NCBI GenBank assembly: GCA_030704425.1
Contig: JAPDHM010000002.1
Location: 1,269,864-1,333,863, forward strand
DNA length: 64,000 bases
From: Rhodobacteraceae bacterium IMCC1909
Lineage (GTDB): Bacteria; Pseudomonadota; Alphaproteobacteria; Rhodobacterales; Rhodobacteraceae
Direction of reading: 5' to 3'
The notes below the pieces were generated by a model. It was given only the letters and a program-made list of their open reading frames with translations. It had not been told where the DNA came from and searched no databases. The translations under genes and the position numbers were made by a program. Of this stretch, positions 31,039 to 47,193 are shown one piece after another (positions within the stretch are counted from its first letter, which is position 1; every line of letters begins with the position of its first letter).

Positions 31039-31341
31039 GCCTAATTTCCTTTTCCCATTGATCTGCGGTTCGAATCGTAACGCTTAATTACGGGTACAGT
31101 AGCCATATCGTTAATGAAAGATTAAATTTCAACAATAATGTCATTAAAACCGAGGCTTCAATGAGTTTTTAGCTGTATGAAATACTCATTAGTTATTCAT
31201 ATTGCTATATATTTTATTAAATTATATTGTGAAATATTGATGGATTGTTTAGTATTTTTTAAACATAATTTAATATATTGAATAGATTCATGGCGCGTGT
31301 TTAAAAAGGTCAGTGAACATAAATGTCTGGAGAAAGAAACT
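31039..31341. promoter_or_regulatory. AT-rich divergent promoter region (T1SS operon / surface protein)
   Basis: About 300 very AT-rich bases separate the leftward T1SS operon from the rightward giant surface-protein gene, so promoters for both directions must lie here. Several TATAAT-like and TTGATG-like words occur, too many to choose one pair by eye. Confidence 0.55.
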
Positions 31342-34300
31342 ATGACCATCCAACAACACGCGTCTTTCGATTCAAGCGCTGCTGAGTTGAACGCAACCAG
31401 CAAGCTTGTAAAGGCCTGGGAATCCAAGAACGCCAAAAATGCGGCGCGCGCCGGTGGCGTATCGCTCATGGCACTGTCGCTCGCGGCATGTGGCGGCTCT
31501 GATGATGTAGTGGTAGACATCACATCTGATAACGCAGAAATCTTGCTCGCTGCAGTAACGGCAGTAGACGCAACAGCTACGACAGTCGCGGAAGTTGCCT
31601 CTAACGCAAACGCAGCTGGTGTTTCAGCCGGTGAAACTGCAGCAGATGCAGCGATCCGTGCAAGCATAGCAGACGCAGGCATCACTGTGGCGGCCGACGC
31701 AACATCTGCTGAGATGATCGCAGCAGTTGCAGCGTCCGACAATGTAAGCGTTGCTGACACGGCTAAAACAGCAGCTCTTACTAACGCAGCTGGCACAAAA
31801 ACATACACAACAGTAGATGCCGCATATGACGAAGGCGTTCTAGTAACCTCCGCAGACGCAGTTACTGCAGCTCTCACAGATGCAGGCGGCACTCCCCACG
31901 CAACCGTAGATGCGGCGATCACATCCAACGACACAGCAATTGCCGATGCGGCGACAGTAACTGCAACAGCAGCTGCTGAAGCAACATTGGTTGCTGGCAC
32001 AGGTTTTGACACTGTTGCGGCGCTTAATGCAGCTTACACTACTGCTATCGCGGCAACTCCTGCGCTCGTCGATCAGGCACTCGAGACCACGCAGGACGTT
32101 ATTCAGGGCACTGCAAGCGATGATACGATTGTTGGTACCAACCTTACCTACAACGCGACAGACGTAGTAATTGGTGGTGGTGGTGACGATACGCTCACTA
32201 TCAACAGCGCCGTAGACACCATTGCAGCCGCAGCGACTGTAGTTGGGGTTGAAAATGTCGTTTTCAACATCTCTTCAGCTAACTTGGCTGAGGCCGACGT
32301 AACACTGACAAACATCAAAACTGGGTCAATAGCTATCAATCAATTGACAGCTGGATCAGCGGCCACGGCAAATATCACAAACGCTGGTGGTGTAACGCTG
32401 GAATTTGGTGGTTTGATCACAGGTGCAGCTACTATCGCACAGGTAGCCGCAACAGATTTAGTCGTTAACCCAGGTACAGCCGGCACAGTAAATATAACTG
32501 GTGGGACCACAGGTTCCGCAACAGTGACTAGCACAGCAGCGACGTTCGTCGATGCAGATGTAGCGGTAGGAGCGACAGGCACCGTAACAATCACAGGCGG
32601 CTCAGGTTTGGCCGCGATTGATGCTGACGGTACGACTATGAATGTCACAACAACAAATGCCAATTCTGACATCACGCTTACTGGTACAAGTACGGATGCC
32701 ACAGATGCTGCTACAGTCTCTATCGGTGCCGCCGCCGCAATTACTACGGTAAATGCTGTTGAGACTATGACTATCTCGACTGGTACAGCAGCAGGTGACG
32801 GAACGCAGACGGCTGCTAGTGTCGCTACTGTTGATACAACTGCGGCAACGACTTATAATCTAACGGGCTCAAACGATATCGTACTGGCCGGTGATGAAGC
32901 GATGTTTGACGGTAAAACAGTTACATCTGACAACACTGGTGCATCATCAGTTCGTTTGACAACTATGGCGGCTTCAGACCTAGAAAAGGTAGCTGTAGAC
33001 GTGTCTGTCGAATTGGCAGACGCCAACATCAACCATGGTACTGCCACAGCAATAACCGTTAAGAACAATGCAACAGTTGTGATTTCTGCTGATTTGGACG
33101 GTACTGATGACGGCGATACCAACCTGCTAACTCTTGACTCAGACACGCTGGCTACTGGTGCCGAAACTCTAAACTTGACTATCACGGCCTCCCAGACAGA
33201 AGTGCAAGAAGCTACTGCGGTGGTTTCAGACTTTGAAACGGTAAATTTAAGCACTACCGGAGCCACAGCGGCGGTGGTAGTCAGCGGAATTACTGGCACC
33301 GCAGGTGCATCAGGTACAGCATTTACACTGGCCACTGGTTCGGTAGGTTTGACCCTAGGCACGTTGACAGGTGCTACATTCGACGCAACAGGTTACACTG
33401 GCGCAATCACGACCACAGTGTCTGATGCTACTTTGGCCACGTCAGCTACGTTTGGATCTGGTGATGATATCATCACATCATTAACAGCGGACGTATTAGT
33501 AATCGATGGTGGTGATGGTAACGACAACCTAACAGTTGGTGTTGATGCTTCTGACTTGACGTTGTCAAATATTGAAGTGCTCACAATAGTTGACGATACT
33601 GAGTTCGCCGCGGCCCAGTTAGATGGTGGTACATTCTCGGTTATCGGTACGAGTGCCGACGACATTGAAATTGGCGAAAACGGCACGGGTGTTTGGGACA
33701 GTTCAAGTCTGGATTTGTCTGGCTTGAACTTTAACGCTCAAGTGGCTCAAACAACACTAACAATTGATGCAACTTCGATAAATGCGTCATTGGCACTCGG
33801 TGGTAGTTACTCAGTAACTGGTTCATCTATCGCCGATGTCTTCGATGGCGCGGCAGTGTCAGGAGCTATTAATATTAGCGGTAACGGTGGTGCCGATAAT
33901 ATTACTACAGGTTCTGGAGCTGACGTTATCTCAACTGGTGAGGGTATCGACATAGTTGTTTCGGGCGCTGGTATCGACACAATTGACCTGACAGAAGCAA
34001 CTGCAGCGGTGGATACGATGACTTTCTCAGCTGAGGGAGCGACCAACGTTGACACTGTTACTGGGTTCACAGCAATTGCGGCAGATGATGTTATTGCCCT
34101 TGATTTTGCCAACCTCAATGCCGGTGACATTATGGGAACTAACGGTACTGTAGTTACAGCCGTTGCCCACACCATGGTATCGTACACCTCAGGGGCAACA
34201 CTTGCCTCTAACACTTCCATGGCTGCTGTACTGAAGATCACAGATACAACCGGCATGAACTCATTTGCGGACGTCTCAACAGCTATAGATGCTAATAACA

Positions 34301-34512
34301 TCACGTTGGGAACCGGTGGCTCTTTCGCTGTCGGCGAAGGTATCGTGACGGTTTTCTATGACGCTGATGATAGCCAGGCTGTGGTCGGATACATGGAATC
34401 AGATGTTGCTGACGTATTCGATGACGGCAGCACATTTGTCGAAATTGTTAAATTGACAATGAGCACGGCTGAATATGATGCACTGTCAGCCGCAAACTTC
34501 GATATCGTATAA
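31342..34512 (+). CDS. S-layer-like / RTX-like secreted surface protein
   Basis: This Ala/Thr/Asp/Gly-rich protein of 1056 residues has no basic N-terminal signal, and its composition is typical of S-layer and RTX proteins (almost no Cys or Trp). Its first 50 residues end in VSLMALSLAACGGSDD, a lipobox-like motif at Cys50 placed after a long polar leader, which is unusual. The body is beta-strand repeats. RTX-like Gly/Asp motifs appear as GTASDDTIVGTN, VIGGGGDDTLTIN, DGGDGNDNLTV and GNGGADNITTGSGADVISTGEGIDIVVSGAGIDTIDL. The end TMSTAEYDALSAANFDIV has no Sec signal logic and fits a C-terminal T1SS tag. Size, repeats and an adjacent T1SS resemble Caulobacter RsaA, so an S-layer role is likely but inferred. 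The ATG at 31342 has GGAGAAAG upstream; an earlier in-frame start at 31297 has none. Confidence 0.75.
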   Translation: MTIQQHASFDSSAAELNATSKLVKAWESKNAKNAARAGGVSLMALSLAACGGSDDVVVDITSDNAEILLAAVTAVDATATTVAEVASNANAAGVSAGETAADAAIRASIADAGITVAADATSAEMIAAVAASDNVSVADTAKTAALTNAAGTKTYTTVDAAYDEGVLVTSADAVTAALTDAGGTPHATVDAAITSNDTAIADAATVTATAAAEATLVAGTGFDTVAALNAAYTTAIAATPALVDQALETTQDVIQGTASDDTIVGTNLTYNATDVVIGGGGDDTLTINSAVDTIAAAATVVGVENVVFNISSANLAEADVTLTNIKTGSIAINQLTAGSAATANITNAGGVTLEFGGLITGAATIAQVAATDLVVNPGTAGTVNITGGTTGSATVTSTAATFVDADVAVGATGTVTITGGSGLAAIDADGTTMNVTTTNANSDITLTGTSTDATDAATVSIGAAAAITTVNAVETMTISTGTAAGDGTQTAASVATVDTTAATTYNLTGSNDIVLAGDEAMFDGKTVTSDNTGASSVRLTTMAASDLEKVAVDVSVELADANINHGTATAITVKNNATVVISADLDGTDDGDTNLLTLDSDTLATGAETLNLTITASQTEVQEATAVVSDFETVNLSTTGATAAVVVSGITGTAGASGTAFTLATGSVGLTLGTLTGATFDATGYTGAITTTVSDATLATSATFGSGDDIITSLTADVLVIDGGDGNDNLTVGVDASDLTLSNIEVLTIVDDTEFAAAQLDGGTFSVIGTSADDIEIGENGTGVWDSSSLDLSGLNFNAQVAQTTLTIDATSINASLALGGSYSVTGSSIADVFDGAAVSGAINISGNGGADNITTGSGADVISTGEGIDIVVSGAGIDTIDLTEATAAVDTMTFSAEGATNVDTVTGFTAIAADDVIALDFANLNAGDIMGTNGTVVTAVAHTMVSYTSGATLASNTSMAAVLKITDTTGMNSFADVSTAIDANNITLGTGGSFAVGEGIVTVFYDADDSQAVVGYMESDVADVFDDGSTFVEIVKLTMSTAEYDALSAANFDIV

Positions 34513-34710: not shown

Positions 34711-34977
34711 ATGAAACAACTACTACTCGGTGCAGCCCTAGTTAGCATAGGCACTGTCATTGGCGCTCTATCCTCAGATAATACCAACGGGATAGCCAAC
34801 GCGCAGTTCGCCCCTCCCATGCAATCTGGCGATGCTCTCTGGCACTTGCCCAAGTTCGGTGAACAAGGATGGTTCCTCCATGCAAGCAATGGTCGTGTGA
34901 GAGCTTGCAATATGGATAAGGCGAGTGTGGTCGGCGAGCGAGCAGCTCCACGTTGTAGCGAGTGGACGGACGAATAA
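34711..34977 (+). CDS. Small exported protein of unknown function
   Basis: The 88-residue protein begins with a signal peptide or single anchor (MKQLLLGAALVSIGTVIGALSSD). A short mature part follows: FAPPMQSGDALWHLPKFGEQGWFLHASNGRVRACNMDKASVVGERAAPRCSEWTDE, with two Cys that could form a disulfide in the periplasm. The upstream reading to 34645 overlaps the terminator; AAAGGA lies 10 bases before the ATG at 34711, which decides the start. I do not recognise a family. A copy of its last 23 codons lies at 38383-38454, so the gene has been duplicated and partly lost. Confidence 0.7.
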   Translation: MKQLLLGAALVSIGTVIGALSSDNTNGIANAQFAPPMQSGDALWHLPKFGEQGWFLHASNGRVRACNMDKASVVGERAAPRCSEWTDE

Positions 34978-35594: not shown

Positions 35595-38273
35595 TTAGGC
35601 TATTTTCTGACACCAGAACTGATACATTCCTGCAAATGCTCTTGGGTTGACCACTTCATATGTTTGCCATTTATTTAAATCGTATGGATCACTTGCGCCA
35701 GTATTAGTTAGTTTGAAATGCGAAACTATTTTGGCTGACTCAAATCCACAAAATTTTAGTCCTAGCTCAGACAGGCTGTCTCGTATTTGAGGTATTGTGA
35801 ACCGGTGTTCCTGTACGTGAAATATTAAATCTTTCAATTCACTCAAGCTATAAAAGTCGGAGGAGTTCAGTATTTTCTTATGATGGCTTTGGCCTGAAGT
35901 CACCACGGTTGTTCTAAACGACTTCATTGCGGCATCGTTTGATCCAATACCTGCCTTACTGATTTCTTTCCTCATTTCCACTATATGCTTTCTGGCAAGT
36001 TCACTATATAAACCAATCTTCATCAGACCACCTGGTTTGAGGCAATCCGTTAGTACCCTCCAGCCTGCGACAGGGTCATCCATGTGATGTAGAACGCCAG
36101 CGCTTTCCACGATATCAAATCGTCTGCCAAGCTTGCCTAAGTCCAGAATGTCTGCTTGCATATAATCTATGTTTTGGATTCCAAGCTCCTCAGTTTTACG
36201 CTTGGCATAGCTCATGCTGGATAAGCTTAGATCAATAGCTAAGACATTGGAGCCTTTAAACCTTGCTGCAGTGACTATGGAATGTTGACCTGTTCCACAG
36301 CCAGCAATTAAGATGTTAGGTGCTTCAACCTTTTTGATCTGATCATCAAAAAGCTTCAGCTTAATCTCCTCGACCACCTTGGAAATAGGCGCTGCTCGCA
36401 ACCGCAATCCTAAACTCACCCATCTAGGATACGGGCTTAATTCGTATTGATCCCTAACTTTGGAAGACACTTTGTCAGTGATCTCCTCCAACATAGGTAA
36501 AACAGTCTTAATTTGGAGTTCTTGGTTTGGCTCTGCAATCTGCCTAACGAAAACATCGTCAATTTCATCGTTATTCCGCAACGAGCTAGACCAGTCATAC
36601 TGATTTAGAGGTCTAAAAGAGGCCAGGCATAATATTGCCTGCGGGCTTGGTTGTTCGCCTTTATTTAGCACCTCTTTTACAGCCACCTCTAAGACTGCAA
36701 GAGCTTCATCCTCATGCTCATTTTGGTTGTAAATATATTCGTTTGTGAAGCACTGCAGCGCTAATGCAGATTGAAACTCTAACTCTTGTGCCGAACCCGT
36801 AAGATCTGAGATCGATAACAGCAGGCTAGCTCTAAGCCTTCTAAATAAGTCCTCCAGCTCCATATCAGGTAGGGGACAGACACTCATAAGCTTTAACAAT
36901 AGTGGTAGCTTAGATAAGTCTGTAATGACCTCTGGCAGTTTCGGCTCTGGCTCAGCCACAGAGGAAGTTTGCAGGTGTCGTTTCAACCTTGGCTCAAACT
37001 TCAAAAGACTGATGGCTGCAGGAGCAATATCCCTGGGCCTAACAAATGATTTTTTATCAAGTAGCGAGGTGATGACCTTTTGCAGATCAGGGTTTGGATT
37101 TTTAAAAGCTACCCCTTGGAGAGTAAGGCCCATGTTGCTGTAGGCTTCAGCATAATCAGGCTTGATGGTTAGAGCTTTGTTGTAGGCTGCTATTGCCTCC
37201 TGCAGCTTACCTTGCTCTTTTAGAGCATTGCCCATGTTGTTGTAGGCATCAGCGTAATTAGGCTTGATGGCTAGGGCTTTGTTGGAAGCCTCTATTGCCT
37301 CATCCAGCTTACCTTGCTCTTTTAGAGCATTGCCCATGTTGTTGTAGGCTTCAGCATGATCAGGCTTGATGGCTAGAGCATTGTTGAAAGCCTCTATTGC
37401 CTCCTGCAGCTTACCTTGCTCTTTGAGAGCATTGCCCATGTTGTTGTAGGCATCAGCGTAATTAGGCTTGATGGCTATAGCCTTGTTATAAGACTCAACG
37501 GAGGCATCAAGTTGTCCCAGTCCTTTGAGTACGGCCCCTTGGATGTTGAACAAGATGGCTGACTGTGGGAATTGCTGAACTAAGATCCCAGCCTGCTTTA
37601 GAGCCTGCTGAAGTTGTCCTTGGCTGTAGAGGTTAATCAATAATTGCAGCTGTTGTTGTGGTGGGTCCTGAACTTTAGAGGCTTTGCCAAAAGTCTTACC
37701 AGTTAATCCCTTCAGCCCATCACGAGCCCGTTTGTTCTTGGAGAACTTAGTCAAAATATCTTGGTATATACGCTTAGCCTCCTCCGAGGAGCCTTCCTTT
37801 GCTTTCTTCGTTGCCAGCTTGAGAGCTTGATCCAGTTTTAGGCTGTCGAGGATATTCGGCTGTTGAGGCGGTACTTCTGCGGTTAATTTGCTGGCGACGG
37901 CATGCTCTTCGCCAGTTTCATTCAGCTGGTGCTCAAGCTTATCGAAGTCATCGCCTTTAGCACCCTTGCTCTTGGCTTGATCCAGCACAGCTTTTGCTTT
38001 GGCTAACTTGCCCAGCTTAATCAAAGCATCAATGTAGCTTAGCCAGAATTGAGTTTTGGCTGGGTTAGCCTCCAGTGCCGTCTTAAAGAACGGTAAAGCT
38101 TGCTCAACCTTGCCAAAACCAACAGCCAGTACCCCCATATTATGGTTTGCATCAGGATGCTTGGGCTGGGCTTTTAGGATGGCAGTATAGAGTCGATCCG
38201 CTTCTTTAACCTGTCCAGCTTTATGAGATTCAATGGCCTGCTGCAGTGCTTGGTCAATTGTAAGTTCTGTCAT
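35595..38273 (-). CDS. TPR-repeat protein with class I SAM methyltransferase domain
   Basis: An 892-residue fusion. Residues 1-120 hold TPR-like helices (AIESHKAGQVKEADRLYTAILKAQPKHPDANHNMGVLA). At about 255-385 come four near-identical 34-residue TPRs (AYNNMGNALKEQGKLQEAIEAFNNALAIKPDHAEA), encoded by a 102-bp DNA repeat. The last third (from about residue 645) is a methyltransferase: APNILIAGCGTGQHSIVTAARF (motif I), VLAIDLSLSSMSYAKRK, DYMQADILDL, FDIVESAGVLHHMDDPVAGWRVLTDCLKPGGLMKIGLYSE. Such TPR-methyltransferases are common in marine bacteria and modify unknown targets, perhaps glycans or proteins. It has no signal peptide. Confidence 0.85.
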   Translation of the reverse strand: MTELTIDQALQQAIESHKAGQVKEADRLYTAILKAQPKHPDANHNMGVLAVGFGKVEQALPFFKTALEANPAKTQFWLSYIDALIKLGKLAKAKAVLDQAKSKGAKGDDFDKLEHQLNETGEEHAVASKLTAEVPPQQPNILDSLKLDQALKLATKKAKEGSSEEAKRIYQDILTKFSKNKRARDGLKGLTGKTFGKASKVQDPPQQQLQLLINLYSQGQLQQALKQAGILVQQFPQSAILFNIQGAVLKGLGQLDASVESYNKAIAIKPNYADAYNNMGNALKEQGKLQEAIEAFNNALAIKPDHAEAYNNMGNALKEQGKLDEAIEASNKALAIKPNYADAYNNMGNALKEQGKLQEAIAAYNKALTIKPDYAEAYSNMGLTLQGVAFKNPNPDLQKVITSLLDKKSFVRPRDIAPAAISLLKFEPRLKRHLQTSSVAEPEPKLPEVITDLSKLPLLLKLMSVCPLPDMELEDLFRRLRASLLLSISDLTGSAQELEFQSALALQCFTNEYIYNQNEHEDEALAVLEVAVKEVLNKGEQPSPQAILCLASFRPLNQYDWSSSLRNNDEIDDVFVRQIAEPNQELQIKTVLPMLEEITDKVSSKVRDQYELSPYPRWVSLGLRLRAAPISKVVEEIKLKLFDDQIKKVEAPNILIAGCGTGQHSIVTAARFKGSNVLAIDLSLSSMSYAKRKTEELGIQNIDYMQADILDLGKLGRRFDIVESAGVLHHMDDPVAGWRVLTDCLKPGGLMKIGLYSELARKHIVEMRKEISKAGIGSNDAAMKSFRTTVVTSGQSHHKKILNSSDFYSLSELKDLIFHVQEHRFTIPQIRDSLSELGLKFCGFESAKIVSHFKLTNTGASDPYDLNKWQTYEVVNPRAFAGMYQFWCQKIA
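37134..37500 (-). repeat. 102-bp tandem repeats encoding TPR units
   Basis: Within the TPR-methyltransferase gene, the sequence around CCCATGTTGTTGTAGGC recurs with an exact 102-base period (34 codons) at 37231, 37333 and 37435, with a more diverged copy near 37130. The copies are nearly identical, so they arose recently by unequal recombination. Confidence 0.85.
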
Positions 38274-38382
38274 GCTAGGGTTCTCGTTATGTGAAACGAC
38301 TAAGCTGCGTAAATCTCTATGAAACTACCAGATATAGTTTGGAGATAAAATAATAATTTATCGAATGCTTCTCATACTACCT

Positions 38383-38454
38383 TGCAACATGGACAAGGTG
38401 AGTGTTGTGGGCGAACGTGCAGCCCCACGTTGTAGTAGTTGGACTGAGGATTAA
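38383..38454 (+). pseudogene. Duplicated 3' fragment of the small exported protein gene
   Basis: These 23 codons plus stop read CNMDKVSVVGERAAPRCSSWTED and correspond to the end of the gene at 34711-34977 (CNMDKASVVGERAAPRCSEWTDE). The 5' part of the copy is missing. This indicates that the segment carrying the TPR-methyltransferase lies between duplicated ends. Confidence 0.7.
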
Positions 38455-38641: not shown

Positions 38642-38662
38642 TTACATCGGAAACCGATGTAA
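38642..38662. promoter_or_regulatory. 21-bp palindromic operator, copy 1
   Basis: A perfect inverted repeat with 9-base arms TTACATCGG and CCGATGTAA around AAA. It lies 31 bases before the ATG of the 275-residue gene. Two more copies lie at 42527 and 42947. Confidence 0.75.
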
Positions 38663-38693
38663 TATTGCTTTAACTAGGTTTGGAGGATTGCTG

Positions 38694-39521
38694 ATGACTG
38701 TTGGAACACGTTTGCCCGTTTCGCTTGCAAAGAAAATTGCTAAACTACACAAGCGCCTCCACACCACAAACAGAGGCTGGGCTATAAACAACGGCTTTGC
38801 CAACAGCACTCCGTTTGAGTTTGATTACGCTGCATACGATAAAGCTAGCTACGGTGATATGTGGCGTATGAACGTTGAGCTGCATGACGCAATGAATGAA
38901 CACTGGAATCACACAGAAGGCGATGATGCAGCGCAGGATGCATTTGGGCTTTGGGTGATACAAAGCTGGGGCGGTATCCGTAAGCACAAAGAAGAAACGC
39001 TCAAGCGATATTTGTATGAAGCAAAAAACTTCAACACAATTGACGGTAAAGATGGTGTAGCCAGCTACAGTAAGCTGATGGCTGCAAAGAATTGCGAAAA
39101 GTTCTTTATATTAGATGCACGTGTTGCAGTGGCATTAAACGTTTTGCAGCTGGAGTACTTTGGTGGACACCGCTACTTCTTTGATGTGCTTGGAACGCAG
39201 AACAAACAAATTTCTGCCTTCAACAAAATCTACAAGCGCAAGCAATACGAAGCGATTGGGTATGTTCCTTTTGAGGGCAATATGTACAGCTTCTTCAATG
39301 AGCTAGTTTTGAAAATGGCAGACTATTTAGGTGTGCGCGGCATTGAAGTTGAAATGATGCTTTTTGATAATGCTACCAATATTATTAACGATATGGACGC
39401 CATAGCTGAGTCATATGTGGAGAATGAAAAGTACTGGGCGTGGCGTTTAGCAGATTGGAAAAAGCGTAGGAACAAGCGTCATACAGAGCGCTTAAATTCT
39501 GAGGGGCACAACCTAGTTTAG
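38694..39521 (+). CDS. Uncharacterised protein of the palindrome-flanked cassette
   Basis: A 275-residue soluble protein that I do not recognise with confidence. It is helical and rich in aromatic residues. The segment FFILDARVAVALNVLQLEYFGGHRYFFDVLGTQNKQ resembles the 'DARVAxAL' stretch seen in some uncharacterised helix-hairpin-helix/DNA-glycosylase-like proteins, but this is only a resemblance. TGGAGG is seven bases before the ATG at 38694, which decides the start over the TTG at 38688. It is convergent with the TGT-like gene and overlaps its stop by 9 bases. The palindromic operator upstream is shared in sequence with the operon on the other strand, so both sides are likely co-regulated. 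Confidence 0.7.
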   Translation: MTVGTRLPVSLAKKIAKLHKRLHTTNRGWAINNGFANSTPFEFDYAAYDKASYGDMWRMNVELHDAMNEHWNHTEGDDAAQDAFGLWVIQSWGGIRKHKEETLKRYLYEAKNFNTIDGKDGVASYSKLMAAKNCEKFFILDARVAVALNVLQLEYFGGHRYFFDVLGTQNKQISAFNKIYKRKQYEAIGYVPFEGNMYSFFNELVLKMADYLGVRGIEVEMMLFDNATNIINDMDAIAESYVENEKYWAWRLADWKKRRNKRHTERLNSEGHNLV

Positions 39522-40778
39522 GTAATCGTTAATTAGCTTTAAGTTCTGCTCAACCTCGTTTGGTATGCGGCTTGTATCCTCTGCTTTAAATACAATATCG
39601 CAAGCGTCGTGTGCCGTCTTGTGGTAAACATATAGGTTGTGATTTGTAAGCAGCTGCACCCCAGCAGCGCTTAAAAATGTCTGTGCAAACTCGCTACGTT
39701 CGCTGTGCATATCATTGATGCTGAATTTCTGCGTGATTGGAGAGGGACAATCGTTTAGGTGCTCAACATTTTGGTGCTGTTGATACTTGGGGCTCTGTGG
39801 AAAGTCTTGCATTGGAATTCCCCACGTACTTAACGCATTAGTAAGATTTGGAATTTTTGCTATTTCTTGTCGCACACCAGCGCTTTGAAACGGCGAACTA
39901 CTATCATAGCTCACGCGAATATCATTACCTAATTGCTCGCGTAGTATGCGCTGTATTGCAGTTAAGTAGACAGCGTGTTTGGGAGGAGATGCCATTAAGA
40001 CGTGCAACCATTCTGCTTTGTCTAACCTCTTGTCGTCACGTAAGATGCGTATCCACCTGAGTATTGGCTCTATGCCGCTTTTTGTTTCGCCACCCAAAGC
40101 CCAGCCCTCAAAATCAAAGTCTTTAACAGCTGCGTACCACGCCTCACCTGTTCCGTCGCCAGCGTCTTGCAGCACATTAAGGTACTTTGCACGTGCGCCA
40201 GTTGCTGCCCCTCGTTTGTCAGCGAAGTAGCGCAAGTTTGCTACACTTAATTCGATAAGCTGTTCTGCGCTAAAATTAACAAAAGGAGATGTTTTGGATT
40301 TTCTGTCGTGCAGCACCCACAAAGGCATATCCAACGTCATTGCATAGTCACAATATCTATCAAGCCAGCGTAAGATTGTGTCGCGTATACTGCGTTCTCG
40401 CATCCACCTTTGATATACGGCTTGAGGATTGTTTTTGAAATCCACCCAGCCTTTAATTGCTGGGAGTTTGCCAGTGCCTATTTGAAAACCGCCACTGTCT
40501 CCTATTACCACTGTGTCTTTGCTGCGAGTGCTCACAATGTCTGGTGTTGAAATTGTGGCTTTGTTGAATTGGCCGGCACTGTAAAGAACATATTTGCAGT
40601 GCCAGAGATCGCTATCAGTGCTCAAAAAGTTTAAGTCACTTAGCCGCAAACCTTTCGGCATATCACCTTGTGTGATGCTGCTCGTATCTCGCATAGGATA
40701 AGCGGCATAGCCTCGTTGTAGCGAGGGAAGGTAGATTGCATAATCTTCGTATGCATCAGAAAGATTTACGCCGCTCAT
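39513..40778 (-). CDS. TGT/DpdA-like 7-deazaguanine transglycosylase family protein
   Basis: This 421-residue protein has the signatures of the tRNA-guanine transglycosylase fold. IGDSGGFQIGTGK contains Asp94 in the base-binding DSGxFQ motif; LNVLQDAG and GWALGGETK (residues 227-232) sit where TGTs have the QGG and GGLxxGE elements; and VSYDSSSPFQSAG has Asp292 in the position of the catalytic nucleophile (D-S-S in DpdA/archaeal TGT-like enzymes). DpdA-type proteins insert a preQ0-derived base into DNA, whereas bacterial TGT modifies tRNA. The zinc-binding Cys-rich tail of TGT is not seen, so I favour a DpdA-like role. No preQ0 synthesis genes are visible in the window. It follows the 574-residue gene by three bases in one operon. 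Confidence 0.65.
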   Translation of the reverse strand: MSGVNLSDAYEDYAIYLPSLQRGYAAYPMRDTSSITQGDMPKGLRLSDLNFLSTDSDLWHCKYVLYSAGQFNKATISTPDIVSTRSKDTVVIGDSGGFQIGTGKLPAIKGWVDFKNNPQAVYQRWMRERSIRDTILRWLDRYCDYAMTLDMPLWVLHDRKSKTSPFVNFSAEQLIELSVANLRYFADKRGAATGARAKYLNVLQDAGDGTGEAWYAAVKDFDFEGWALGGETKSGIEPILRWIRILRDDKRLDKAEWLHVLMASPPKHAVYLTAIQRILREQLGNDIRVSYDSSSPFQSAGVRQEIAKIPNLTNALSTWGIPMQDFPQSPKYQQHQNVEHLNDCPSPITQKFSINDMHSERSEFAQTFLSAAGVQLLTNHNLYVYHKTAHDACDIVFKAEDTSRIPNEVEQNLKLINDYLN

Positions 40779-40781
40779 TGG

Positions 40782-42506
40782 TTATTGGGCCTTTTTTGCT
40801 GCTGCCCGTTGCGCAGCTTTATATGCTTTGTGTAACTGTTTTTGCTCTTGGGCGAGGGTTTCATACATTTCGTACTGAGGCAGCCAGCTGCGGTATGTGG
40901 CTAAATCTGTTTCATAATCGATATATACAGCACCATTTATGCCAGTGACTTTTGTTTTGTGTGAGGCGAGAGGCAGAGTTGGTATCGACGTAAACAGCAG
41001 CATAGCGTCTTTGGGGTTGAGGTGCATTGTTGTGTTTTGTGTGTCGTTAATTTGTACACTTGCATCAGCGCCGAAAGGCATGGTGAAGCACTTCAGGTAG
41101 TCAGCTTTCCCCTCATCCCACCACCACCAAAGCTTTAATGCGTCTGTGTCTACGCTGATGCCAACTTTTTGATTATGCTTTTTGTTGAAATGGCTTTTAA
41201 TTTGGTTAATCCACTGGCTCACGCACTCGGCATCAAACTCTGCAAGCCACTGTGCGTAAGCTGTAATCTCCCAACTGCATTCTTGCTGAGGTGAAACATC
41301 TATACGCAGTCCGTTGACTGTCTCACTGGGCATCTCGTCTGCGTCGTAGAAGAAAATCTTACGGCTATGGTTGCTGGCGGTTAACTGCAAGCTGTAGCGA
41401 GTATGTGTGTCTGTTGAGTTTTCTACCAACGTATCAACAGGCTCAGCCGAATAAAGTGGCAACTTTTGGTTGTTTAACAATTCTCTTTCCAACCAGCTTC
41501 TGTCGGAGCCACGCATCACAAGCGTAGAGCCGCTGTGCAGCTTGAGCTTTTTTGGTTTGACGTGCGTTACGCAGCTGGCTTTGCGAGGTGTTTTGGTAAT
41601 AATAATTTCGTTGTTTTTAGCATCAACGAGAACCGTAGTGCTTTCACGCACTTTCTCTTTTGTGCCATCAGCTTGTATGCGTTCAATATACTTGCTCTCG
41701 TCAAAGAACTTTTTGCGATATTTTTCTAGTTTTGCAGGGACTGCATGAGGCTGAATTGCTTCGGCAATAAGGCGAAGGCTTGGTGTTACGCTGGCTCTGT
41801 CGATGTCAGTACAAGCTAGCAGTGCGCTCTCAATCAAGTCATCGTTGTAGTTGCTGCCCACAACCTCAAGCTCGTTTGTGTGGCGATTGCGGCGTGCAAG
41901 GATAACTACAAAATCGTCAGTGTTTGCGATTGCGCTAGGAAATGCTTTGAGTTTGGCTTTTGCCGCAACAGATTTTGCTTGTTGCTTTTTGGTTTCGATA
42001 ATTTCGTCACTGCCAGTTGAGCTAGACTTCTTGCCGCGTGTACTTTCAAGTTCTTCGCCGTCTTCTTCGGCGAATAGTTGGTTTTCTGTCATGCGCTTTT
42101 CGCCACGTAATTCGCTCAAGCCACCTAAATCGTGTATGTGGTTGATTAAGTCGCTGCGCATGTTGCTATACTTGGCTGCGTCTTCGGTTGCCGTTTCGTG
42201 TAGTGCAAGGAGAGATTTTGCCCAGTCACTTACTGTAGATGCTTTTTTGGTTATATCGATGTTCCACACAAGGCGCACAAGAGGGTAGAAGTTTGGTTGG
42301 TTGCCTCCTCGCGCACGAGTGCGGATTCCCGCATCTTTGTACAAGCTTTTGAGGTATGCCCCATCTTTACTAGCTTCACGCCACCACAAGTATGTATCCA
42401 CAATATTCTGGTACAGCTTGTCTCTGCTGCTTTCAAAAGTTTGCGTTTGACTGTCAGCAGCATTTTGAAGTTGCGTTAAGCGTTGGTTGAGCTCCTCAGA
42501 CTGCAT
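40782..42506 (-). CDS. Uncharacterised 574-residue partner of the TGT-like protein
   Basis: A 574-residue soluble protein with no family that I recognise. The N-terminal 130 residues are helical, perhaps coiled coil (SEELNQRLTQLQNAADSQTQTFESSRDKLYQNIVDTYLWWREASKDGAYLKSLYKDAGI). A charged linker (LFAEEDGEELESTRGKKSSSTGSDEII) follows, and then an alpha/beta or beta-rich region with LNPKDAMLLFTSIPTLPLASHKTKVTGINGAVYIDY near the end. The C-terminal end has a faint resemblance to a sliding-clamp-like domain, which I do not press. GGAG precedes the ATG, and a 21-bp palindrome lies 20 bases upstream of the start. It is the first gene of the two-gene operon with the TGT-like enzyme. Confidence 0.65.
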   Translation of the reverse strand: MQSEELNQRLTQLQNAADSQTQTFESSRDKLYQNIVDTYLWWREASKDGAYLKSLYKDAGIRTRARGGNQPNFYPLVRLVWNIDITKKASTVSDWAKSLLALHETATEDAAKYSNMRSDLINHIHDLGGLSELRGEKRMTENQLFAEEDGEELESTRGKKSSSTGSDEIIETKKQQAKSVAAKAKLKAFPSAIANTDDFVVILARRNRHTNELEVVGSNYNDDLIESALLACTDIDRASVTPSLRLIAEAIQPHAVPAKLEKYRKKFFDESKYIERIQADGTKEKVRESTTVLVDAKNNEIIITKTPRKASCVTHVKPKKLKLHSGSTLVMRGSDRSWLERELLNNQKLPLYSAEPVDTLVENSTDTHTRYSLQLTASNHSRKIFFYDADEMPSETVNGLRIDVSPQQECSWEITAYAQWLAEFDAECVSQWINQIKSHFNKKHNQKVGISVDTDALKLWWWWDEGKADYLKCFTMPFGADASVQINDTQNTTMHLNPKDAMLLFTSIPTLPLASHKTKVTGINGAVYIDYETDLATYRSWLPQYEMYETLAQEQKQLHKAYKAAQRAAAKKAQ

Positions 42507-42526
42507 ATATATCTCCGCTTTTTCTG

Positions 42527-42547
42527 TTACATCGAAAACCGATGTAA
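42527..42547. promoter_or_regulatory. 21-bp palindromic operator, copy 2
   Basis: The sequence TTACATCG-AAAAC-CGATGTAA has 8-base arms plus one mismatch at the ninth position relative to copy 1. It sits 20 bases upstream of the ATG of the 574-residue gene, a position suited to a repressor. Confidence 0.7.
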
Positions 42548-42673
42548 GGATGCTGGCGGCTATATTGTGTCATTTCAAGTAGAATAAATACTTGCGGAAA
42601 GGGGTTCTTGCCTGTCAAAAATCTGCACTGCGGAAAATTAGGGGGAAGTACTTGTGCTTTTGAGGTGGTGAAT

Positions 42674-42850
42674 ATGCATATATGGGAAGTTACAAGCTGT
42701 AAGGGCAAACAGTCAAAAAGAGCTGTTAAAGGCAAGTCCAGCAAGCGTGATGTGCGAACTGAGTTTGAAAGAAATGCTAGTAAGCTGCGAAGCAAGGAGC
42801 GTAAACTTAACCCTCAGCGATCAATTGCCCCTATAAAGCACACGTCTTGA
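42674..42850 (+). CDS. Small basic protein of unknown function
   Basis: A 58-codon frame with strong basic character (MHIWEVTSCKGKQSKRAVKGKSSKRDVRTEFERNASKLRSKERKLNPQRSIAPIKHTS), preceded by GAGGTGG five bases before the ATG. A longer form from a TTG at 42608 also exists. The composition suggests a nucleic-acid-binding peptide, but I see no family. It lies between the two palindromes that flank the divergent operon. Confidence 0.4.
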   Translation: MHIWEVTSCKGKQSKRAVKGKSSKRDVRTEFERNASKLRSKERKLNPQRSIAPIKHTS

Positions 42851-42946
42851 TTTGCGATTTATGGGAAGAATTGCACGATTTGTTCGTTTTTAATTTGAGA
42901 AAAATATCGACTGGCTGTTAGCCTGAGAGGCATAGTGAAAATGCTC

Positions 42947-42967
42947 TTACATCGGTTTCCGATGTAA
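42947..42967. promoter_or_regulatory. 21-bp palindromic operator, copy 3
   Basis: A perfect inverted repeat with the same 9-base arms TTACATCGG and CCGATGTAA around TTT. It lies about 100 bases right of the small basic gene and ten bases before a possible 25-codon frame. Confidence 0.7.
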
Positions 42968-43139
42968 CGAGGATTAGATGCGCTCATCTGTGCTCAGCGC
43001 ACGAATGCTGTTGAGTGAACTCTGTACGCCTTCTAACGCACTCACGGCAGGGTAGGGGGTGTATGTTCACCACCGAGGATTGATAAGTACTCCACCATAA
43101 GAAACTGCGCAGTGAGATTTTCGGCTTGTAGAACCCCGT

Positions 43140-45149: not shown

Positions 45150-45716
45150 ATGGCACAAGCACAAACACTTACAGACGCACAGTTACGCCGCTGCTTGAAG
45201 TGGTGCCAAATGCGCAGACACAGCGCACGTGACACAACTATCTTCTATGTGAGCTACTACGCAGGACTCCGTGCTAAAGAGATTGCTGCACTTACAGTTG
45301 GCGATGTGTATGATGAGCAAGGTAGTGTGCGTGAACAGTTCGCACTAGATGCCGTCCAAACCAAAGGTGCAAAGACACGCACAGTATGGATAAACGCCAA
45401 GCTGCGTCGTCAACTGGAGCTGTATCGCAGCAGCCTGTTGTTCAAGGACTCAAACCGAGCACTGTTTCAAAGTCAAAAGGGTGGAGCGTTCAGTGCGAAC
45501 ACGATGACGCAGCTATTCCTAAACATCTATCGTGCTGCTGGATTTAAGAATGCCAGTTCACACAGTGGCAGACGCACCTTCATTACTGAACTGGCAAGCA
45601 AGGGTGTGAGCGTGCGTGTGTTGGCAGAACTGGCAGGGCATTCGAGTATACAAACCACTCAACGCTACATTGACGTCAATCCACAGCAGATGAGTGCCGC
45701 AGTGGAATTATTGTAA
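45150..45716 (+). CDS. Short tyrosine recombinase (catalytic domain only)
   Basis: A 188-residue integrase that consists of the catalytic domain alone. Box I has YYAGLRAKEIAAL (catalytic Arg), the Lys region is QTKGAKTRTVWIN, box II is SHSGRRTFITELASKG (His-x-x-Arg as HSGRR), and LAGHSSIQTTQRYIDVN supplies the final His and the catalytic Tyr. The N-terminal core-binding domain of classical integrases is absent, as in small integrases of phages and integrating elements. GAGGTG precedes the ATG. All catalytic residues are present, so it may be active. Confidence 0.88.
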   Translation: MAQAQTLTDAQLRRCLKWCQMRRHSARDTTIFYVSYYAGLRAKEIAALTVGDVYDEQGSVREQFALDAVQTKGAKTRTVWINAKLRRQLELYRSSLLFKDSNRALFQSQKGGAFSANTMTQLFLNIYRAAGFKNASSHSGRRTFITELASKGVSVRVLAELAGHSSIQTTQRYIDVNPQQMSAAVELL

Positions 45717-45780
45717 ACCTTCAGTCTTGACTTGTACGGTTTATTGTACGATTAATGCTGCCTGGAGTAAGGAGATTGTT

Positions 45781-46032
45781 ATGGATGTCATGACGTACAC
45801 AGATGCAAGAGCGCAGTTAAAAGGCGTTATGGATCGAGCAATAGTGGACGGACAAGAAGTCGTGGTGACGCGGAAGAAGGGCGAGGCTGTTGTTGTCGTG
45901 TCTTTGGATGCGTGGAACGAAATTAATGAAACGCTGCATTTGTTGTCTACTCCAGTGAATGCAGCGCGGCTTCGCAGTTCTATTGCAGAACTGGACGCAG
46001 CGGGTGGACAAGAGCGTGAGTTAGAGGAGTGA
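45781..46032 (+). CDS. Type II antitoxin, Phd/YefM family
   Basis: An 83-residue antitoxin beginning MDVMTYTDARAQLKGVMDRAIVDGQEVVVTRKKGEAVVVVSLDAWNEINETLHLL, the YefM pattern (DNA-binding N-terminal fold with a flexible C-terminal helix). It binds its operator and neutralises the RNase toxin encoded next to it. AAGGAGA precedes the ATG at 45781, which decides the start over a frame opening at 45694. It overlaps the toxin start by 4 bases. Confidence 0.9.
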   Translation: MDVMTYTDARAQLKGVMDRAIVDGQEVVVTRKKGEAVVVVSLDAWNEINETLHLLSTPVNAARLRSSIAELDAAGGQERELEE

Positions 46033-46295
46033 AGCTGGTATTCTCGTCCACTGCTTGGGAAGACTACCAATTTTGGTTAAGTACTAATCCAAAAATCCAT
46101 GCGCGAATAAATGAATTAATAAAACAAGCCACGAGGACGCCATTCACAGGTGTCGGAAAACCAGAACCTTTGCGAGGCGATCTTAGTGGGTGGTGGTCCC
46201 GGCGTATTTCACGCGAGGACAGGATGGTGTACCGAGTTGCTGGCAGTGGTGAAGCTCAATCTCTGGAGATAGCACAGCTTCGTTTCCACTACTGA
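46029..46295 (+). CDS. yoeB: Type II toxin, Txe/YoeB family mRNA interferase
   Basis: The 88-residue toxin begins with a GTG overlapping the antitoxin stop. It reads MKLVFSSTAWEDYQFWLSTNPKIHARINELIKQATRTPFTGVGKPEPLRGDLSGWWSRRISREDRMVYRVAGS...LRFHY. The YoeB features GKPEPLRGDLxGxWSRRI, the RxxY of ISREDRMVYRV and the C-terminal HY are all present, including the catalytic-region Glu, Arg and His residues. YoeB cleaves mRNA at the ribosome. Confidence 0.93.
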   Translation: MKLVFSSTAWEDYQFWLSTNPKIHARINELIKQATRTPFTGVGKPEPLRGDLSGWWSRRISREDRMVYRVAGSGEAQSLEIAQLRFHY

Positions 46296-46320: not shown

Positions 46321-47193
46321 TCACTCATAGGCTTTGTCTATCAAACTCACAGCTTGTTGCAGTCGGTGATTGGCTAGATGCGCATAGCGTTCTGTTGTGG
46401 CAGAACGTGAATGTCCCAACAGCTTTTGCACTTCGTAGAGCGTAGCGCCATTGTTCACCAGTGTGCTTGCGAAGCTATGACGCAAGTCGTGTATGCGCAC
46501 ATCATGCAAACCTAACTCTGCGCGAATGCGGCTCCATTTGCTGAACACACAGCGATAGGGTTTGTGTGTGCGCGGATTGATGAACAGCCACTGTGGTTTG
46601 TGGATGTACTGCTGTGTTTGCAGCAGTCTAGCGTATTCGATTATCTGAACAGCTCTACGGTTGAGCATCACATAACGTGGCTTACCGTTCTTTGTTACTG
46701 GCACGTACCAGCTGTTGCGTTCCAAGTTGATGTGCTGCCACTCAGCTGTAAACACTTCATGCCGACGTGCGCCCGTGTACATCAAAAAGCCAATCAGCAA
46801 ACACACGGCATCCCTGTGATGTAACTCCACATAGTCTCGCAATCGACTGGCTTCTGCCGCGTCCAAAAATCGTTCTTTGAGTGGATTGGCGTGAAGCAGT
46901 CTTATCGGTTTATACAGTGTAGAATGCGTATCAGCGCCGCACAGCTCATCTGCTTTGAGTAGGGCGCTGCGGATATGTTGAACACATTTATTGATGAAAC
47001 TTTTGCTGTAACCTCGTTCGGACATATGGGCTACGAATGCGAATATATGGCGGCTAGACAGCTCACTGAGTATGACCTTGCCAAACCTTGTTTGCAGATG
47101 ATTTTTGTACATGGATTGATGTGACGAATATGTGCGTTTGTATATCTTACACCAAGGAAGAAAGTGCTGTTCGTAGTAAACGTCAAAGGCCAT
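46321..47193 (-). CDS. Tyrosine recombinase / site-specific integrase
   Basis: A 290-residue XerC/D-like integrase. The N-terminal core-binding domain is YSSHQSMYKNHLQTRFGKVILSELSSRHIFAFVAHM; the catalytic domain has FLMYTGARRHEVF (first Arg), VTKNGKPRYVMLNRRA (Lys hairpin), VRIHDLRHSFASTLVNNG (HxxR), VQKLLGHSRSATTERYAHLANHR (His and Tyr). All five catalytic residues appear intact. The start lies exactly where a TPR reading frame on the other strand begins, and there are no residues before MAFDVYYEQ, so the extreme N terminus may be trimmed by a rearrangement. Confidence 0.9.
   Translation of the reverse strand: MAFDVYYEQHFLPWCKIYKRTYSSHQSMYKNHLQTRFGKVILSELSSRHIFAFVAHMSERGYSKSFINKCVQHIRSALLKADELCGADTHSTLYKPIRLLHANPLKERFLDAAEASRLRDYVELHHRDAVCLLIGFLMYTGARRHEVFTAEWQHINLERNSWYVPVTKNGKPRYVMLNRRAVQIIEYARLLQTQQYIHKPQWLFINPRTHKPYRCVFSKWSRIRAELGLHDVRIHDLRHSFASTLVNNGATLYEVQKLLGHSRSATTERYAHLANHRLQQAVSLIDKAYE

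Follow-up and report, generated by a model that had tools for sequence, protein, structure and literature searches.

We have analysed a 64,000-nt stretch of the genome of Rhodobacteraceae bacterium IMCC1909 (contig JAPDHM010000002.1, positions 1,269,864 to 1,333,863; hereafter the window), which carries at 38642-42967 a palindrome-flanked unit whose conserved core is a pair of adjoining genes, T421 and B574. T421 appears from its sequence to be a divergent enzyme of the tRNA-guanine transglycosylase (TGT) superfamily. It is probable, in our judgement, that the pair is a mobile two-gene module in which T421 would replace guanine in DNA by a preQ0- or preQ1-like 7-deazaguanine supplied by the host, through queuosine salvage (YhhQ) or synthesis (QueC), while B574 would supply DNA binding or targeting and the palindromes would bound the unit. 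The carrier would be a family of mobile elements with a small tyrosine recombinase; many of its members also hold S58, DUF6626, DUF6641 and a Rep-like protein, and some additionally hold restriction-modification or Dnd-type genes.

Within the unit, A275 (275 aa, + strand, 38694-39521; ATG at 38694, stop codon TAG at 39519-39521) converges with T421 (421 aa, - strand, 40778-39513) and B574 (574 aa, - strand, 42506-40782). A first-pass annotation of the window had described convergent units meeting at a stop overlap, and the ends of A275 and T421 indeed have 9 bases in common (39513-39521).

A hhalign comparison of a T421 family profile built from 96 relatives with a profile of 21 TGTs taken from related genomes gave a P value of 1.9e-8 (Prob 95.4) over residues 142-400; three unrelated controls gave P values of 0.06-0.64. 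A relative from Azospirillum matched the archaeal TgtA model TIGR00432 at 3.4e-5, under the model cut-off. Both motifs named by the first-pass annotation are present, DSGGFQ at residue 94 and YDSSSP beginning at 291, so that its Asp is residue 292. DSGG[FYL]Q occurs in 96 of 96 relatives, and in bacteria and viruses alike D94-S95-G96-G97-Q99, D150, Q204, G225, H259, D292 and N381 vary hardly or not at all. Aligned with TGT (PF01702), the family matches it at the Asp, Gln, GG and HN positions; from this alignment and the enzymology of TGT, we take T421 to have a base-binding Asp and Gln and a nucleophilic Asp. Unlike tRNA TGT, the T421 family does not have the zinc motif CxCxxC (0 of 96 relatives vs 18 of 21 TGTs) or a Pfam match (0 of 13 members scanned), and the host genome has its own tgt gene. 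T421 is rare: of 390 genomes of the order, 4 hold a relative, counting the source genome, and among the 61 nearer relatives the source genome was the only one (1/61).

A scan of IMG/VR viral contigs with the T421 family alignment returned at least 598 confirmed relatives, of which the best 80 were kept; all 80 kept contigs hold a T421-like open reading frame (ORF). Of these 80 loci, 77 have a DNA-polymerase cluster member and 78 a clamp-like protein on the same strand, at most 6.5 kb away, both names being assigned from a few cluster representatives. The annotated DpdA of the Queuovirinae phage GottfriedDienst likewise neighbours polymerase and clamp genes. Relatives in named phages, those of Vibrio phage 2.275.O and Paride, lie near deazaguanine genes (QueF, YhhQ, QueC and FolE genes or a QueE-like gene). 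Bacterial hosts were searched for QueC and YhhQ only; a strong QueC match was found in 7 of 17 host genomes and a YhhQ-family gene in 12, with one or the other in 16 of the 17, the exception being a metagenome bin. The source genome has YhhQ and TGT genes, with no QueC found, and therefore a salvaged base could be available to T421. The earlier statement that preQ0 genes are not adjacent stands for QueC, YhhQ and TGT, none of which was found in the window, the other preQ0 genes being outside the search. Because the viral relatives lie near DNA-polymerase genes and the hosts have QueC or YhhQ, T421 most likely acts on DNA.

Several findings weigh against this reading. Searches of Pfam, NCBIfam, PHROGs and PADLOC with T421 gave no significant match. 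Its family has no detectable relation to the annotated DpdA of a Queuovirinae phage, to which TGT itself is related only at P 0.025. Among the 80 kept viral loci, only 9 have a Que-type deazaguanine gene that could be detected, and the clamp-like label rests on one weak match: the family corresponds to PHROG 12062, of unknown function, with a single member matching a DNA-polymerase processivity factor (6.7e-5). In a rival explanation, T421 would be a horizontally moved TGT modifying tRNA or mRNA, with B574 as an RNA-binding partner. TGT is a tRNA enzyme family to which T421 is closer than to Queuovirinae DpdA, and SFDCASP, close to the FDC of TGT, is the form of 69 of the motif matches found in the 96 relatives. 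We nevertheless regard action on RNA as unlikely, given the viral relatives near DNA polymerase, the resemblance of the T421 motif YDSSSP to CDSSSW of DpdA and YDSST of DpdA2, and the DNA-modification genes that neighbour T421 in several loci.

T421 did not match the NCBIfam DpdA model NF041059, nor did four of its relatives, yet the Queuovirinae DpdA itself scores only 16 bits there. Sequence searches of the PDB with T421, singly and as a profile, gave no useful match. DpdA2 of Vibrio phage nt-1 (YP_008125322), a large phage with Que genes, resembles T421 in its DSGG-Q and ISYDSS motifs (PMC6884629); the overall sequence link is weak (hhalign Prob 20, P 0.0011; hmmsearch, 2e-5 in a one-sequence database). 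Because there is no detectable relation to Queuovirinae DpdA and only a weak one to nt-1 DpdA2, we treat the T421 family as what may be a further, separate lineage beside DpdA and DpdA2. The first-pass label TGT/DpdA-like is kept, the profiles supporting TGT homology, but in sequence T421 is closer to TGT than to DpdA.

B574 directly adjoins T421 in 14 of 18 bacterial loci (the window, L006-L011, L013-L018 and L150). Among the other four, L012 ends at a contig edge and L020, L151 and L152 carry a protein of similar size with no significant similarity to B574 (best P 0.01 for the neighbours in L151/L152 and Azospirillum). Trees of B574 and T421 for the 12 loci present in both agree in their main groups and are broadly congruent, with some weak forks and with L150 and L020 on very long branches. 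B574 is most likely a dedicated, co-inherited partner that would give T421 DNA binding or targeting. It had no significant library match, its PDB sequence search returned nothing useful, and tblastn found no homologs in phages or plasmids. Nearly identical T421 proteins in Polynucleobacter and in a Rhodobacteraceae bin point to horizontal transfer or to misbinning.

The 21-nt palindromes have the form TTACATC-N7-GATGTAA and stand at 38642-38662 (TTACATCGGAAACCGATGTAA), 42527-42547 (TTACATCGAAAACCGATGTAA) and 42947-42967 (TTACATCGGTTTCCGATGTAA); the last formed the right edge of the unit in the first-pass annotation, where it went unnamed. The exact palindrome occurs in the 3.27-Mb genome at these three places only, and three further matches each have 3 mismatches, similar ones being obtained with a backward control pattern; the three palindromes are beyond chance. 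The exact form TTACATCG-N5-CGATGTAA was found in 1 of the 390 genomes of the order, the source genome, and a variant form in at least one other (G271).

We consider it likely that the palindromes are unit boundaries of a recombination type, and they would probably be core sites of site-specific recombination. They are read as unit edges because homology to Yoonia (L006) stops at them, because they flank the module in Marivita, because a different palindrome pair flanks a related module in L151/L152, and because several lie between convergent gene ends. The window and Yoonia share 4.3 kb at 75% identity from palindrome to palindrome; in 200-nt blocks, four blocks inside gave z values of 17-25 and the two just outside the outer palindromes 1.3 and 2.1. 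Yoonia has seven palindrome copies in the region, two of them imperfect, spaced among gene units; a recombinase-palindrome-S58 unit is tandemly duplicated there at 97% (L006:1-3131). Marivita (L008) has its own form of the palindrome, one copy preceding B574 by 10 nt and another following T421 by 12 nt, on either side of the module, and in Roseovarius a degenerate copy lies between the recombinase stop and B574. A different 21-nt palindrome, AAACTTGATTWAATCAAGTTT, occurs in exactly two copies each in L151 and L152, loci from two other genomes of the order, where it flanks a module running from a transporter to a second glycosyltransferase.

The first-pass annotation had called the unit palindrome-controlled, and the palindromes do lie near both start codons, 31 nt before A275 and 20 nt before B574. 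They could then act as operators bound by one shared repressor, such as DUF6626 or S58, and not as recombination sites, a proposal with which constant arms around a variable centre would agree, as would copies 9-21 nt before B574 in L006, L008 and L010. Counting against a boundary role, a start codon follows 9-31 nt after 7 of the 17 copies read in five loci, as an operator would also explain, and 13 of 14 further loci of the Yoonia-type recombinase (XerS-A) have no TTACWTC palindrome within about 1.5 kb. Other copies, however, stand between convergent 3' ends (palindrome 3 in the window, between the S58 and DUF6626 genes; 1221 and 2802 in Yoonia L006; 3461 and 9282 in Marivita L008; 5362 in L222), where an operator makes little sense. 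The two-genome homology stops at the outer palindromes, and in L152 one AAACTTGATTWAATCAAGTTT copy abuts the stop codon of the small recombinase. L222:8122-8497 holds a B574 gene truncated to its first part; one palindrome-like copy precedes its start by about 10 nt and another sits at the broken end. The genome of this locus, G271, gave no T421 match in the search of the order. Related full-length integrase genes in L222 and L008 also have a copy about 30 nt downstream. On balance we hold the operator explanation to be rather improbable, and simple control gives way to unit-boundary behaviour, to which a regulatory role may be added.

The TTACWTC pattern was found in 6 of 18 genomes searched, in 8 clusters, with a small recombinase near 8 of 8 and DUF6626 near 7 of 8. 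Dispersed repeats of the repetitive extragenic palindrome (REP) type were rejected, as each genome has at most seven exact copies (nine in Yoonia with two imperfect ones) and all 8 clusters lie near a small recombinase. The palindrome was likewise rejected as a fixed feature of XerS-A, being found in 1 of the 14 further loci, 746 nt past the stop, with a looser copy in another. As a viral feature it was also set aside: the four single matches in viral contigs are near chance by a rough guess at the size of the collection, and the Marivita form had no match there. In L221:5310-5560 there are two palindromes, and the roughly 40 nt that come after the one are nearly the same as those after the other, which suggests an asymmetric site larger than the palindrome.

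The first-pass annotation had proposed a three-gene cassette. A275 co-occurs with T421 and B574 elsewhere, in Yoonia L006, where it is about 80% identical to the window copy; these are nevertheless the only 2 of 18 loci in which it adjoins T421 (a few others end at contig edges), and a stable three-gene system is rejected in favour of the B574-T421 pair. A relative of A275 was found in 4 of 289 genomes of the class, the source genome included, and its relatives on five plasmid loci have no T421 adjoining. Weak matches to the OGG-like DNA glycosylase family PF21790 were seen in 4 of 6 A275 family members, all below the cut-off of 27 bits; the best (18.7 bits) came from a relative, the window A275 did not match PF21790, and a PDB sequence search with A275 gave nothing useful. 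Glycosylase activity of A275 is thus a lead only. One might combine these observations into a restriction-like defence unit of A275, T421 and B574, in which an OGG-like A275 would attack DNA by its modification state (lacking or carrying the modification). Co-location in two genomes and the weak family matches speak for such a unit, but the 2-of-18 count, the plasmid relatives without T421 and scores under the curated cut-off leave it quite unlikely.

The setting of T421 is that of a mobile element. Of the 18 loci, 16 have a small tyrosine recombinase, 11 have DUF6641 and 8 have DUF6626; across the order, the small recombinase was found in 27 of 390 genomes at E 1e-30. It counts against the boundary reading that XerS-A, the Yoonia-type recombinase, is absent from the source genome save for a candidate 18-nt remnant of the 3' end of its gene (42968-42985, - strand), suggested by alignment to L006 2784-2801; the local XerS is 47% identical to XerS-A. 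The window holds two tyrosine recombinases, XerS-B (188 aa, catalytic domain only, PF00589; 45150-45716, + strand) and XerL (290 aa; 46321-47193, - strand). The arrangement resembles integrons and Xer/dif modules in combining a tyrosine recombinase with repeated palindromic sites between gene units, the boundary evidence coming from sequence and recombination being what it would imply. It is unlike integrons in that the recombinase has only a catalytic domain, scoring 40 bits with the integron integrase model TIGR02249 (cut-off 265), and the sites are short 21-nt palindromes. A search for an empty site in the genus left the unit unmatched in 19 other genomes, with flank matches that were partial only.

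Further genes lie near T421. L007 and L013 hold type II restriction-modification pairs, L151 has a C5 methyltransferase and L009 codes for a PIN-domain protein; in L150 (9882-14855), genes resembling DndC and DndD/PbeC, together with a DndE/HerA-like one, directly adjoin B574-T421. The module might serve the mobile element itself and not host defence, cloaking the element's DNA from host restriction as phages do. The viral kinship of the enzyme and the gene content of the element agree with this, but the type II and Dnd-type genes suggest a host-marking or defence setting, and we would give cloaking somewhat less than even chances. Of the earlier proposal of a modification system for defence or of phage origin, we keep DNA modification as probable and the setting as mobile and related to phages; defence would be a possible further function.

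Glycosylation may be added in some relatives. In L151 and L152 the genes run as a YhhQ-like transporter, a glycosyltransferase-like gene (41% identical to Paride_0116), the T421-like enzyme, a 585-aa protein in the position of B574 and a second glycosyltransferase. This palindrome-flanked module, beside a small recombinase (L151:4726-10910 and L152:6075-12253), is a candidate glycosylated-deazaguanine DNA system in bacteria. In Paride, L151 and L152 a glycosyltransferase directly adjoins the T421-like enzyme. That viruses in general have one next to the enzyme was rejected, since it is present anywhere in 35 of the 80 viral loci and within three genes of the enzyme in 2. Jumbo phage PA5oct, a close relative of Paride, is credited in a review with a system for deazaguanine synthesis and incorporation (PMC7824862), the cited passage leaving the gene unnamed; it carries a relative of T421 (31% identity) that scores among the best from phages. 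Its kin Paride differs from the window in having a glycosyltransferase-like gene as neighbour, and phages yielded no relative of B574.

DpdA and the dpd islands (Salmonella Montevideo; phage 9g and Queuovirinae) resemble the T421 module in having a TGT-type enzyme, a D-S-S-S motif and an island setting, and the YhhQ and Que genes near some T421 relatives recall them as well. A dpd island is defined by dpdB (DndB-like) and dpdC (DUF6884) next to dpdA (PMC11888242). Unlike the partners in such islands, B574 matched no model where it was scanned; six window proteins, B574 and A275 among them, gave no dpdB or dpdC match, the presence of dpdB/dpdC models in PADLOC and NCBIfam not being confirmed. 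The first-pass view that the partner genes lie outside known dpd clusters thus agrees with the models scanned. The kind of system is known in principle, as a deazaguanine transglycosylase; the separate enzyme lineage, the new partner and the unusual carrier would distinguish this one. Among the open-access papers searched there was none on DUF6626, and none joining TGT, DNA modification, a tyrosine recombinase and mobility. A broader account, a serious possibility that still falls short of even chances, is that a separate, virus-widespread lineage of DNA base-exchange enzymes was captured by a palindrome-punctuated platform as a minimal two-gene system drawing on host queuosine salvage, with a glycosyltransferase that may decorate the base in relatives. 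If the proposed exchange is correct, 7-deazaguanine modification of DNA would be wider than the known DpdA families, a TGT-like protein of hundreds of viral contigs would gain a likely function, and a family of mobile elements would come to light in which palindromic sites exchange genes for DNA modification and restriction.

Further features surround the pair. S58, a very basic protein of 58 aa (pI ~11; 42674-42850, + strand), lies between palindromes 2 and 3; its gene was missing from the first-pass list and in several other genomes is convergent to the XerS-A recombinase. The DUF6626 protein (PF20331; 43140-43454, - strand) recurs across the element family. Between the two recombinases, at 45694-46295 (+ strand), are two small ORFs that, judged by eye, look like a toxin-antitoxin pair of the YefM/YoeB type. 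The 3' end of a 110-aa gene next to palindrome 1, on its left, is duplicated as a 74-bp direct repeat (80%) at 34904-34977 and 38381-38454, which encloses an 892-aa TPR-methyltransferase-like gene; the repeats are possible old attachment repeats. Within the TPR gene, 102-nt tandem repeats (37115-37496) have similar copies elsewhere in the genome and genus. Further left, at 31297-34512, a 1071-aa ORF of low complexity, rich in Ala, Thr and Asp, looks by eye like a surface protein.

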